A DNA stretch of 58,435 nt from Planctomycetota bacterium (GTDB lineage Bacteria > Planctomycetota > Planctomycetia > Gemmatales > Gemmataceae): contig JACPPF010000165.1 of assembly GCA_016191165.1 (NCBI GenBank), positions 1 through 58,435 of the forward strand, read 5' to 3'. Under the pieces are notes generated by a model. That model was not told the origin of the DNA, did not search any database, and saw nothing but the letters and a program-made list of their open reading frames with translations. Each line of letters opens with the position of its first letter. Position 1 is the stretch's first letter. Below, one piece after another: positions 43,695-50,039 of this stretch. The translations under genes and the position numbers were made by a program.

Positions 43695-45881
43695 CTATCC
43701 TTGTTTTACAAGACTCATCAGCCGATTCCCCGCCGCCTTGCGGCTTAGTATTTCGCTCACCCGCTCCACGATGACTCCGCCGGCCTCCGCGGGTGGCAGG
43801 CCGCCGGAATAGATGTTGGAGATCACGGTGTATTCAAAGCAAATTCCGGCGTTGCCGCTGAACCGAGCCGCCTGTTTTTGAATGTCAGGATCGCCAAGGC
43901 GATAGACCAAATAAGCCGACAGGCTGCGTGAAGCCAGCGCGTCGCCGCCGGGACGTTCGCCGATCAGGTAGACAACGACATCACACCGTAGTTTCTCGGC
44001 AAGCGGCTCGGCCAACTTCACGCGTCCATAACGGGCGGCGATGGGTTGCCCGGTTGTGAAACTTCGCCCCGCGAATCCGTCGAACAATACGGGCAAGAGA
44101 TCGTTCATGTTATGATGCACGGCTTCGGCGCTGAGGCCGTCGGACACCACGATCTGCACCTGGCGATTTTCCGGCGTCAACCACTCGATGCTTTGCGCCG
44201 AGATGCGGGCGCCAAGATCGGGGGAGCCCAGGTGAGCCTCCTTGCTCGACGCCTCGGTGGTGATGACGCGGAACGGCGCGATTCGCTGTAGGTCATCGAT
44301 GCGCAGTTCCGCATGGATCGCCGCGCGGCCTACGCCTTGATTGAGCCGCACTTGCCGCGCGACCGCGTTGGCCGGGCGCGGACCGGCGTTCTCGAGGCCG
44401 CAAAGGGCGGGGGTCGCGGCCAGGAGTTCCTGATACTCGGCATCCGACTCGCAGAATTGTCTGGGATCGCCCCACCGCGGTCCGCGTAGAACCGTGCCCT
44501 GCGCGTCGAGCGTGAAGATGCCGCGATTCAAACCCCATTCCAAATATTCCGGCGCGAGCCGCTTGCCATGAATTTCCCGCAACGTCTGATTGTCGTGGCC
44601 GCTGGTGTCGAAGTAGGCCAACATGCGATCCGTGTTGAGTCCCACGTCCATGAAGTAGTTGGCGCCCGCGGCCGTCAAAAGTTCCGTGGCGATCTGCTGC
44701 CCTTCCAGGGTGATGTTGGAGTGCAACGTGAAACAAGGGGCCATTCCCATCGGCAGGCCGAGCAGTTTGCCCATGAAGTGATCCTGCAAATTGGCGAGGA
44801 CCATCTCGAAATTATCGAGGTGGGTTTCTGGGCCGATGAAACCCGTTACGTTGTTGACCATGAACGGATCATATCGCCGCGCGAGGCCGTAGCACAGCGC
44901 CTCGGAGGTGGTCATGTCGATGCCGTTGTGTTTGCCGTAGCTGTATTCACTCCCCTGTCCCGTCTCGAAGTACATGAATTGCTCGGCGATGTCCCTGAGA
45001 GGCCCCTTCTCGACCATGACCCGGTAGGCGTGATCAAGTAGATCGACGGTGATGTCGAACTCGTTGTTGGTCCTGTCGGTTCCTCCCAGGCTCTGAAAAA
45101 TGACCTCTACTGGTACGCCGCGCTCCAGGCAGGCGAGTTGAGTTTTGATGTGTGCCAGCACGCAGATTTGGGTTGGCGCCCCCGTCCGGCGGCGCAGCTT
45201 GTCGAGGTGATGCAGGACGCTGGAAATGTTGTCCACCGTGTCGATGGCGGGGTTCAAGCCGATGAGCGCGTCGCCGGTCCCCAGAGACAAACCCCAATAG
45301 AAGAGAAAGGTGATGCCGCGTAAATCGTCCGTCGGATGGTTCCCCTGCAAGCGCGAGGAGAGCGTGCCTGGCGTGCCGAGCAGCGTGCGCGCCCTGGTCG
45401 GCCTGGTGATCTTCCGTGCAAGGTAGATCAACTCATGAACGTCGCATAACTTGGCCAGGGCCGCCGCCATGACGCCCGTCATGGCCTGACCCATGCGCTG
45501 AACCTCCACGGCGCCTGCGCGCAGTAGTTGATTCTTCACCTCACCCAGCGTCAAGCCGGCCAGCTCCGCGAATGCGGCGTGATCGATGTCGTAGTTTACC
45601 GCCATGACCGAATCGACTTTGTCATCGGCATCGGTAAGAGGATTGTCGTAAAGATGCTGCAACGTCAAATTTGAAAGGATGGTCCGTGCAACCTCGCGTT
45701 CCGTCTCGCTCGACGCGGCCAGTCCCGCATGGCGATCACCGGCCTTGCTGCAATCCGCGGCGCCCAGCAATCGCTTCAAACCCTGGAATGCGAAATCCTG
45801 CGCAAAGAACCTCGACCGGTACACCTGCTCCGGTCCAGGCCGCGGAACCGCGATCTCGCTCAAGGGTGTTAGCTCTTTCAC
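43695..45881 (-). CDS. eutBC: Ethanolamine ammonia-lyase, large and small subunits fused (EutB-EutC)
   Basis: A 728-residue single polypeptide. Residues about 25-465 are EutB (TLLGTPGTLSSRLQGNHPTD; LSLGTGDALIGLNPAIDTVD; LYFETGQGSEYSYG-type FMYFETGQGSEYSYGKHNG; RRYDPFMVNNVTGFIGPE), the catalytic barrel. After a short linker, about 480-728 are EutC (QVRLNQGVGRAAIHAEL; VQIVVSDGLSAEAVHHN; YLIGERPGGDALASRSLSAY; TVISNIYSGGLPPAEAGGVI), which completes the adenosylcobalamin site. The enzyme splits ethanolamine to acetaldehyde and ammonia. In most bacteria these are two genes. The start overlaps the eutA stop by four bases (ATGA). Confidence 0.95.
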   Translation of the reverse strand: MKELTPLSEIAVPRPGPEQVYRSRFFAQDFAFQGLKRLLGAADCSKAGDRHAGLAASSETEREVARTILSNLTLQHLYDNPLTDADDKVDSVMAVNYDIDHAAFAELAGLTLGEVKNQLLRAGAVEVQRMGQAMTGVMAAALAKLCDVHELIYLARKITRPTRARTLLGTPGTLSSRLQGNHPTDDLRGITFLFYWGLSLGTGDALIGLNPAIDTVDNISSVLHHLDKLRRRTGAPTQICVLAHIKTQLACLERGVPVEVIFQSLGGTDRTNNEFDITVDLLDHAYRVMVEKGPLRDIAEQFMYFETGQGSEYSYGKHNGIDMTTSEALCYGLARRYDPFMVNNVTGFIGPETHLDNFEMVLANLQDHFMGKLLGLPMGMAPCFTLHSNITLEGQQIATELLTAAGANYFMDVGLNTDRMLAYFDTSGHDNQTLREIHGKRLAPEYLEWGLNRGIFTLDAQGTVLRGPRWGDPRQFCESDAEYQELLAATPALCGLENAGPRPANAVARQVRLNQGVGRAAIHAELRIDDLQRIAPFRVITTEASSKEAHLGSPDLGARISAQSIEWLTPENRQVQIVVSDGLSAEAVHHNMNDLLPVLFDGFAGRSFTTGQPIAARYGRVKLAEPLAEKLRCDVVVYLIGERPGGDALASRSLSAYLVYRLGDPDIQKQAARFSGNAGICFEYTVISNIYSGGLPPAEAGGVIVERVSEILSRKAAGNRLMSLVKQG

Positions 45882-47311
45882 GAACGATCTCCGTGAGGGA
45901 GAAACCCGTAATAGGAAACCGGAACCACCTGATTTCGCGGCAAACCGATTCGCACATATTGGGCGTCACGCCGCGGAATTTCGTCGATGACCAGAACGCG
46001 CAACGGTAGCGCGCCCCAGCGCGTCACGTATTGGCCCAGCACCTTGCCCAGATTCTCCTCCATCAAAAATACCAGCGGATGCCTGGCCGGGAAAGCGTCT
46101 TCTTGCAGAAACCGCGCGATTCGTTGACCCACGTCACGGACCACGGATGCGTCGTGAGTGCCGAGCTGCAACTGGATTCCCCCGCCGCAGCTGCTTTGCC
46201 GGACCAGCCTGAGGACGTCGTGAACCTGGAAGTCGGGCGAATCACCCCGCAGATTGCCCAGGATTGGAAGATCGGCCAGCGGCAAGATGTCAGCGTTTCC
46301 AAGGAACAAGCTGCTGCCGGAGACTTCGGTTGCATGGCGCAACAGACCGTAAACGGTCGCCCGGCCCCCGGACTCGGGGCGAATCCGTCGCAGCGATTCG
46401 GCCCAGATCGGCGCCTGCACGATGCGCTGGGCCAGATCGATACCGAGGTCGCCAAAATGCGTCGTCGCGGGCCAGGGCTGGCCTTGCAAATAGCGATAGA
46501 TCAACTCGCCAACGCCGCCAGAGAATGTCACGGCGATGTCGCCTACCTCGGCAGGCATCTGAAAACGCGCCTGCTCCAGGAGACTCGCAATCGAATTTTG
46601 GAACGGTTCGCGGTTCCCGGTGCAAACCGCCTCCAGGAGCGTCAGATAGAATGACATGATCACGTCAACCTCGGTACTGGTCAGCTCGTCGCCCAGTCCC
46701 TTGCTGATTTGAACCTGATCGAACAAAGCCCGTGCATGGGCTGAAAGGCGAACAATCCGGTAACTGCCCGGGACCAGCTCAACGTGACGGGCGCCCAGGA
46801 AAAGGCACCCCGTTCGCGTTACCTGCCCGCTGATCCCGAGCGCGATGTTCGTCGTGCCGCCACCGATGTCGAGGTTGAGAATGGCCAGGCCGGGATGTTG
46901 TCGCGCAAGGCCGGCACAGTTGCCCATGAAGGCAAGCCAGGACTCAAGACAGGGATCATCTGCCGTCGCGATCAGCGCATCGCCGAGCCGTCGGCGAATC
47001 AGGCTGACGAGCCCGGCCGCGTTTTCCTTTTGAGCGGTCAGCCCGGTCAACAAGGCGCCGCCGCCGAATAACTCATCGGTATGTACGTGCCCCGCTTGCA
47101 GCCAGCCGTTCAAAAGGGATTCCACCCTCGCAAGGTCCAGGCGGCCATCGGGCAGCAGCGGAGTGAAAACCATCTCGGAGCGAAAAACCTCCTCCTGAAA
47201 ACCAAGCTCCATACGCCCGACCGCCGTTCGGCATAACCGCGCAAGGGCGACCACAGCGATGCTGGTCGTCGTTCCAAAATCCAGGCCAATCAGCTTGACG
47301 GATTCTGACAT
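45878..47311 (-). CDS. eutA: Ethanolamine ammonia-lyase reactivating factor EutA
   Basis: A 477-residue actin-fold ATPase that removes damaged cobalamin from the lyase. Signatures: IGLDFGTTTSIAVVA (phosphate-1, about 8-22), GGGALLTGLTAQKENAAGLV, LNLDIGGGTTNIALGIS (phosphate-2, about 145-161), VTFSGGVGELIYRYL, and the C-terminal LRVLVIDEIPRRDAQYVRIG plus PVSYYGFLPHGD. Length matches the family (about 467). It is the first gene of the eut unit and overlaps eutBC by four bases. No shell, eutE, eutD or eutT gene and no cobalamin riboswitch is visible upstream. Confidence 0.93.
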   Translation of the reverse strand: MSESVKLIGLDFGTTTSIAVVALARLCRTAVGRMELGFQEEVFRSEMVFTPLLPDGRLDLARVESLLNGWLQAGHVHTDELFGGGALLTGLTAQKENAAGLVSLIRRRLGDALIATADDPCLESWLAFMGNCAGLARQHPGLAILNLDIGGGTTNIALGISGQVTRTGCLFLGARHVELVPGSYRIVRLSAHARALFDQVQISKGLGDELTSTEVDVIMSFYLTLLEAVCTGNREPFQNSIASLLEQARFQMPAEVGDIAVTFSGGVGELIYRYLQGQPWPATTHFGDLGIDLAQRIVQAPIWAESLRRIRPESGGRATVYGLLRHATEVSGSSLFLGNADILPLADLPILGNLRGDSPDFQVHDVLRLVRQSSCGGGIQLQLGTHDASVVRDVGQRIARFLQEDAFPARHPLVFLMEENLGKVLGQYVTRWGALPLRVLVIDEIPRRDAQYVRIGLPRNQVVPVSYYGFLPHGDRS

Positions 47312-48848: not shown

Positions 48849-50039
48849 TCACTTCTGGCCCGTTTCCTGGATCAGCTTCTCCAGGGCGGTGTCGATGGCC
48901 CTTTCGCCGGGGCTGCCCATCCATTTGTAACGGATCACGCCCTGGGGATCGATGATGTAGTATCCGGGATTGCCGGCGTTCCACTTTTCTCGGATCGGAC
49001 GTCCCTTGGCAAACGAGCGCCAGTTCAACATTTCCTTGGCCATTACGGTTTTCAATTTCTTTGGCTCCAGGCGATCGACGTTGACGCCGATCAGGGCGAA
49101 CGGCTTCTTGGCCAGGTTCTTGACGAGCGACCGCTCGTGAGGCCAGGTGGCCCGTCAGTGGAGTCATATTTCGGACCAGAAGTAGAGCAGGACCACCTTC
49201 CCGCGATAATCGCTCAGCTTGAAATGTTTGCCATCCTGGTCCTGGCCTTCGATTTCCTGGGCCATTTTTCCGACGGTGAGATTGCGAAGTTCGTGCAGTT
49301 CGATCTTGGCCCGTTCGCCCACCGTGCCGGCGTAGGGAAGTTTCACGTCACCGAATTCCCTGGCAGCCCGCACGAAAAGGGATTCAACTTCTTTGACTGC
49401 CTGGGTGCGATCCTGGCGCTGAAGCGTCTCAAGATAAGCTTTGCCGAACAGGCCCTGGTAGCGTCGTGCCATTTCCGGCCGTTCCTTGAGCAGGTCGAGC
49501 CGATTCAGGCGGGTAATCAGAAGCTGAGCCAGGCGCAGGCAGGCGGCGCCTTGAACATCCCGGTGCGGGCTTTTGGCCAGAGCCGTGCGCAGGAATGTCT
49601 CGCAGTCCTTGTGAAATCCGTAGGAGATTCGCCAGCAGGCATGGCCGAGCTTGTCGCTACGGATGTGATTGCGCAGCAGGATTGCGATGGCCTTCTCTTG
49701 CAGGCCATCCTGGATTCGGCGAAGATTTTTTGTGTTGTTCTCGAACCAGAGTTCCTGGTTGACCACCTGGACCAGAGCATCGATGGCGACCGGGTCCTTG
49801 GGATACTTCTCGGCCAATTTCAGGCAGCTCACGGAGAGAGCACCCACCCGCGCGATGGCCGGGTTTCGCTCCTCGTCGGTCTTGGCCTTGAATGTGAAGA
49901 CATGCGTCATCTCGTAGAACTCTTTGACGAGCGACTCGAACTGTGCGGCTGGCTTGTCCTTTCCGGCGGCCTGGAAATTTGCCGCCGCAAGGCCAATGAC
50001 GAGAATGGGAATGCAGCTCATGTAGTTCATTCCATCCAT
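48849..50039 (-). CDS. Predicted selenoprotein: secreted thioredoxin-fold protein with UxxU motif
   Basis: A 396-residue protein if two UGA codons (49164-49166 and 49155-49157, codons 292 and 295) are read as selenocysteine. A signal peptide (MSCIPILVIGLAAANFQAAG) and a helical region (about 30-255) precede a redoxin/TlpA domain: KLSDYRGKVVLLYFWSEI-U-LH-U-R, then ATWPHERSLVKNL, PFALIGVNVD, NPGYYIIDPQGVIRYKWMG and a TAA-free end at TGQK with TGA at 48849. In homologs FW-E-W-C-G-P-C-R occupies this place, so both UGAs sit exactly on the CxxC cysteines and the frame is unbroken on both sides. The start at 50039 follows GGGGGAAAG. Alternatives are a decayed gene or sequencing error; two hits on precisely these codons make both unlikely. 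Confidence 0.85.
49123..49138 (-). promoter_or_regulatory. Candidate bacterial SECIS hairpin
   Basis: On the minus strand acgagc (49138-49133) pairs perfectly with gctcgt (49128-49123) around a GGTC loop. The loop begins 22 nt after the second UGA and 31 nt after the first. The E. coli fdhF SECIS also exposes GGUC in its apical loop at a similar distance, where SelB binds the guanine and uracil. It lies within the coding sequence, as bacterial SECIS elements do. Confidence 0.65.

Follow-up and report, generated by a model that had tools for sequence, protein, structure and literature searches.

The locus described here raises the question of how a cell reads a thioredoxin-fold gene in which two in-frame UGA codons stand at the two cysteine positions of the catalytic CxxC motif. 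The gene lies in a window of 58,435 nt (the whole stretch of DNA that was analysed) from a planctomycete of the family Gemmataceae. Direct reading of the minus-strand frame from 50039 to 48849 gave 291 open codons, then TGA, Leu-His and a second TGA, after which the frame is open again to its end; no further stop lies between codon 295 and the terminal stop, itself a TGA at 48851–48849. The original prediction, made from this stretch of DNA, that two in-frame UGAs occupy the CxxC positions of this frame was thereby confirmed, and the two fragments that it had listed, namely 291 codons ahead of the first UGA and a 68-aa TTG ORF at 48849–49055, are both present as given. Our preferred reading, to which we assign a probability of roughly 93 %, is that this gene codes for a ResA/TlpA-like redoxin that is probably exported and in which both catalytic Cys residues are replaced by selenocysteine (Sec) to give a UxxU motif, both being decoded through one bacterial SECIS element (bSECIS), and that it was derived from a UxxC gene. 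The features of the gene are as follows.

48849–50039, minus strand: UxxU redoxin gene of 396 codons plus the terminal TGA when the two internal TGAs are read through; PF00578 match, and homologues with the same two TGAs
49164–49166, minus strand: UGA1 (codon 292), where Sec is predicted for the first of the two catalytic positions; read directly, and matching the first Cys when TlpA/ResA-like structures are aligned
49155–49157, minus strand: UGA2 (codon 295), where Sec is predicted for the second; read directly, matching the second Cys in the same alignment, and Cys in UxxC relatives
49123–49138, minus strand: predicted bSECIS hairpin, ACGAGC-GGUC-GCUCGU; from codon invariance in Sec genes only, pairing counts, fold energy and the published bSECIS model
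48927–49274, minus strand: AhpC-TSA/redoxin domain, residues 256–371; from hmmscan, with a thioredoxin fold in the model and ResA as the best structural match
49281–49952, minus strand: helical N-terminal region, residues 30–253, of no known family; from the AlphaFold2 model (mostly pLDDT >85), without a Pfam match
49962–50039, minus strand: hydrophobic N-terminus, residues 1–26, a possible export signal; from sequence only, in a part of the model with low confidence

Elsewhere in the window, at 43695–47311 on the minus strand, two adjoining frames resemble, judged by their translation, the large subunit of glutamate mutase and a MutL/GlmL-like protein.

When both UGAs are read through, residues 256–371 of the protein match PF00578 (AhpC-TSA; hmmscan, 3.1e-18), and in the family profile the U positions fall on the two Cys residues of solved TlpA/ResA-like proteins, in agreement with the earlier claim that the UGAs replace exactly the catalytic cysteines. 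An AlphaFold2 model built with 31 sequences (mean pLDDT 89, pTM 0.84) comprises an N-terminal part made of helices and a domain with the thioredoxin fold, in which residue 292 immediately precedes a helix and the active site lies ahead of the domain's first helix. In Foldseek this domain was best matched by ResA, with TM-scores (by target length) reaching 0.90, and by TlpA, and P358, at the cis-Pro position before the strand facing the active site, is invariant in 31 UxxU proteins. None of the NCBIfam models matched the protein above its cut-off, those curated for TlpA and ResA being missed at 48.5 of 230 bits and 46.9 of 170 bits, respectively. The hydrophobic character of the N-terminus suggests that the protein may be exported. 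Such a protein would alternate between the diselenide and the two-selenol state and exchange electrons, in one direction or the other, with an extracytoplasmic partner.

If the UGAs specify Sec, the host should encode the machinery to insert it, and a search for that machinery had been proposed with the original prediction. The host genome assembly (7.2 Mb, 183 contigs, 95 % complete) contains a tRNA-Sec of 73 bits, above the Rfam cut-off; ARAGORN typed it as SeC (anticodon TCA), and its fold has an acceptor stem of 8 bp together with a long variable arm. SelA (559.9 bits; cut-off 268) and SelB (361.6 bits; cut-off 242) are also encoded there, each in an open frame. The expectation was borne out for these three components and not for SelD, for which no match above cut-off was found in this 95 %-complete assembly; the best matches in the SelD search were rejected, as they resemble ThiL and HypE, the HypE-like one lying beside a HypD-like frame. 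The gene probably falls in an assembly gap, because SelD scored above cut-off in 83 of the 95 genomes of the family, including all six of the other searched members of the host's genus, although the gene may instead have been lost. SelB exceeded its cut-off in 81 of the 95 family genomes and in all six further UxxU genomes examined, namely Paludisphaera soli, four labelled Verrucomicrobiota and one of the Pirellulaceae. The presence of Sec machinery in the host also bears on the idea that UGA has been reassigned there to another amino acid, a reading that would account for in-frame UGAs within a gene. Since the gene's own terminal stop is a TGA, and since the internal UGAs occur solely at the catalytic Cys positions, paired with a hairpin, we consider reassignment so improbable as to be negligible.

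The same two codons were then compared among relatives, where the original prediction leads one to expect Cys or UGA. Comparison of the read-through protein with the 95 family genomes yielded, besides the window, 16 homologues (45–63 % identity) from eight other genera of the family with exactly two in-frame TGAs, and in every case where we inspected the DNA these occupied the same two codons; further homologues in this search had one TGA and others none. A search of 392 planctomycete genomes added five more homologues with two TGAs, from other parts of the phylum, and additional ones with one; this brings the total from the protein searches to 21 homologues, all from Planctomycetota, that have the same two TGAs in an intact motif. 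The two codons in relatives thus read as UxxU, UxxC or CxxC, and the two-TGA arrangement, recurring at the same codons in many homologues, is far beyond chance. We also scanned one genome per species from 84,980 species with a pattern that demanded the hairpin and therefore cannot gauge its conservation. There were 40 matches, of which 38 fall in UxxU redoxin genes and share one span of 44 bases; the remaining two (L140 and L142) have other spacing, do not lie in such a gene and were discarded as chance. The 38 sites come from Gemmataceae, Pirellulaceae, other Planctomycetota, the isolate Paludisphaera soli (Isosphaeraceae) and four MAGs labelled Verrucomicrobiota. The UxxU genes of these four MAGs (L112, L114, L138 and L149) cluster with planctomycete ones, perhaps through gene transfer or binning error. 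Behind the UGAs the frame is intact at 35 of the 38 sites, with an early frame break in the other three (L111, L134 and L137). At L111 and L137, two MAGs have a UxxU gene in common whose frame breaks at one and the same place, some 20 codons past the hairpin, which may be due to error, decay or frameshifting, and the UxxU copy at L068, L102 and L134 (G069:C62) is disrupted by a short repeat and a frameshift.

The predicted bSECIS hairpin, a feature that the original prediction had not considered, lies within the coding sequence; its loop follows UGA1 at a distance of 31 nt and UGA2 at 22 nt. In the protein-similarity sets the codons after the motif are CAC GAG CGG TCG CTC GTn, the hairpin spanning those for E-R-S-L, and it was present in every UxxU gene from the protein searches, in one case with a G-U outer pair. 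In the 60 Sec sequences compared, only one codon is used for each of H, E, R and S wherever the residue is kept (59/60 each), and L is encoded by CTC in 58 and by CTT in two. Codon entropy at the hairpin positions is 0.5–1.5 bits in CxxC homologues, and it is 0.7–1.9 bits at the other residues of Sec genes that are at least 95 % conserved and have more than one codon. All six pairs are formed in 20/20 UxxU, 39/40 UxxC and 0/16 CxxC sequences, the departures in Sec genes being mostly G-U pairs. Part of this invariance could reflect constraint on the protein, conserved residues being encoded there, but such constraint does not account for the whole of it, because the codons are fixed as well.

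The core of the hairpin folds with −7.9 to −8.5 kcal/mol (z about −3.1 to −3.2). Fold computation showed no unusual stability of the wider 60-nt region around the UGAs as a whole, and a long stable fold spanning both UGAs was accordingly dismissed as unsupported. The bSECIS model published in PMC13188914 has a loop of 3–9 nt with G in the first two positions, a stem of 4–16 bp, a distance of 16–37 nt from the UGA and an MFE of at most −7.5 kcal/mol; the loop GGUC, the 6-bp stem, both spacings and the fold energies of the present hairpin all agree with it. The host genome has two exact copies of the 16-mer, one behind this UxxU motif and the other behind the UTHC motif of the host's own paralogue (L028; G000:C165:93703–94806). 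In the 95 family genomes there are 39 copies, against 0 for a reversed control pattern; all 39 are in redoxin genes and in one register, and 37 of them follow a UGA.

Several individual hairpins deserve mention in their own right. The host UTHC paralogue has the identical 16-mer yet groups with CxxC sequences in the tree; it may have undergone gene conversion or gained the hairpin independently, or the neighbouring sequences may have lost theirs. A UMAC redoxin in a CxxC group (L027; G004:C171) has a variant hairpin, GAGC-AGUU-GCUC, with AGUU in place of GGUC in the loop and the outer pair lost, and perhaps gained Sec independently. In the two redoxin genes among the 39 that lack the UGA, L084 (G075:C269:42114–42129) and L212 (G088:C139:38441–38456), the exact hairpin is kept and the active site is Ser/Ser or Gly/Trp; these hairpins are possible SECIS relics in inactive paralogues. 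Finally, several of the family's SelD genes (L184–L193) themselves contain a UGA (SCAGUAGKLPP), and the hairpin that follows it is a different one, with GGU in its loop. The notion that SelB needs the exact stem everywhere was rejected, as the Sec-containing SelD genes of the same family have this other hairpin and lack the 16-mer core.

These observations bear in turn on whether the gene is decaying, the UGAs being true stops and the 291-residue protein its only product. The missing SelD of the host assembly would fit such a state, as would the relative G069, which has a visibly broken copy and in whose 79 %-complete genome no SelB was found. Elsewhere the sequence behind the UGAs is intact and under selection in many species: dN/dS there (40 codons each) was 0.06–0.50 in 24 of the 25 pairs listed and 0.90 in one paralogue pair. 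Degradation of relatives past 49164, which would have spoken against the original prediction, was not what we saw, the region being conserved and mostly under purifying selection. With the hairpin conserved at the codon level and SelA, SelB and tRNA-Sec intact in the host, decay is a very unlikely explanation.

The reading of the gene as encoding a UxxU selenoprotein, as first proposed, is therefore supported by the Sec genes, the relatives and the near-invariant hairpin, and Sec is very probably inserted at both UGAs. SelB with Sec-tRNA would use the single hairpin, very probably shared by the two codons, to place Sec first at UGA1 and next at UGA2. Decoding two UGAs generally lowers efficiency, and it is conceivable that one UGA is read efficiently while the other acts mostly as a stop or receives a near-cognate residue, the main product then being truncated or mixed; the hairpin of UxxC relatives is 31 nt from the UGA, which gives only the UGA1 distance a single-UGA record of its own. 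Such partial decoding seems unlikely to us, since both UGAs are retained in all UxxU sequences of one large clade and both hairpin distances fit the bSECIS model of PMC13188914.

That clade, with SH-aLRT support of 99, unites all 38 UxxU sequences of the tree inside a mainly UxxC group; the active-site and hairpin columns had been masked, and the tree, at 146 columns, has many open forks and leaves the sister group undecided. A single origin of the UxxU form is probable, through a change from TGC to TGA in a UxxC gene already equipped with the hairpin. From such an ancestor the second Sec would have required no new SECIS: with the hairpin 31 nt behind the existing UGA, the change at the second Cys lands 22 nt away and could be decodable at once. 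We think it highly likely that these genes form a dual-Sec redoxin family of Planctomycetota, and possibly Verrucomicrobiota, in which one intra-coding hairpin serves two UGAs nine bases apart and fixes the codons and most of the residues HERSLV, the second Sec having been acquired by a one-base change under an existing SECIS.

SelL is a UxxU Prx-like selenoprotein with a diselenide. Compared by description only, it has in common with the present protein a UxxU motif in a thioredoxin fold and an expected diselenide; unlike SelL, the present protein is ResA/TlpA-like and has a helical N-terminal region. Its likeness to ResA and TlpA lies in the thioredoxin fold, the best structural matches and the aligned catalytic positions, whereas the Sec predicted at both of these positions, the extra N-terminal region and the scores below the NCBIfam cut-offs set it apart from them. 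The SECIS of E. coli fdhF is a hairpin within the coding sequence behind the UGA, with an apical loop GGUC. The present hairpin is likewise intra-coding, behind a UGA and topped by GGUC, but differs in that one hairpin would serve two UGAs, in its longer spacing and in a stem without a visible bulged U.

UxxU selenoproteins are thus already known, and the present family is a variant of them. In PMC9312934 and PMC13188914, PF00578 Prx-like thiol:disulfide oxidoreductase selenoproteins are listed with UxxC and UxxU (representative WP_010940744.1), and these have the same Pfam domain as the present protein, Sec at the CxxC positions and a UxxU variant, WP_010940744.1 being compared by description only. 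UxxU also appears in a pfam04592-like family in the GOS survey (PMC2398784), and Sec genes are reported for Gemmata obscuriglobus and Isosphaera pallida in PMC4807772. The novelty implied by the original prediction consequently does not extend to UxxU in the PF00578 Prx-like family (PMC9312934, PMC13188914). It stands for the planctomycete protein to the extent that, in an incomplete set of papers available in part, we found no planctomycete UxxU redoxin or clade, no shared near-invariant hairpin and no origin from UxxC.

The exact 16-base hairpin offers a practical tag for these genes, which standard annotation splits in two, and the family provides a simple one-base route from UxxC to UxxU. 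The UxxU gene, moreover, lets one ask in a natural setting over what distance a single bacterial SECIS works and whether it acts twice running, a question that single-UGA genes are unable to settle and that the cultured host Paludisphaera soli makes feasible to address.
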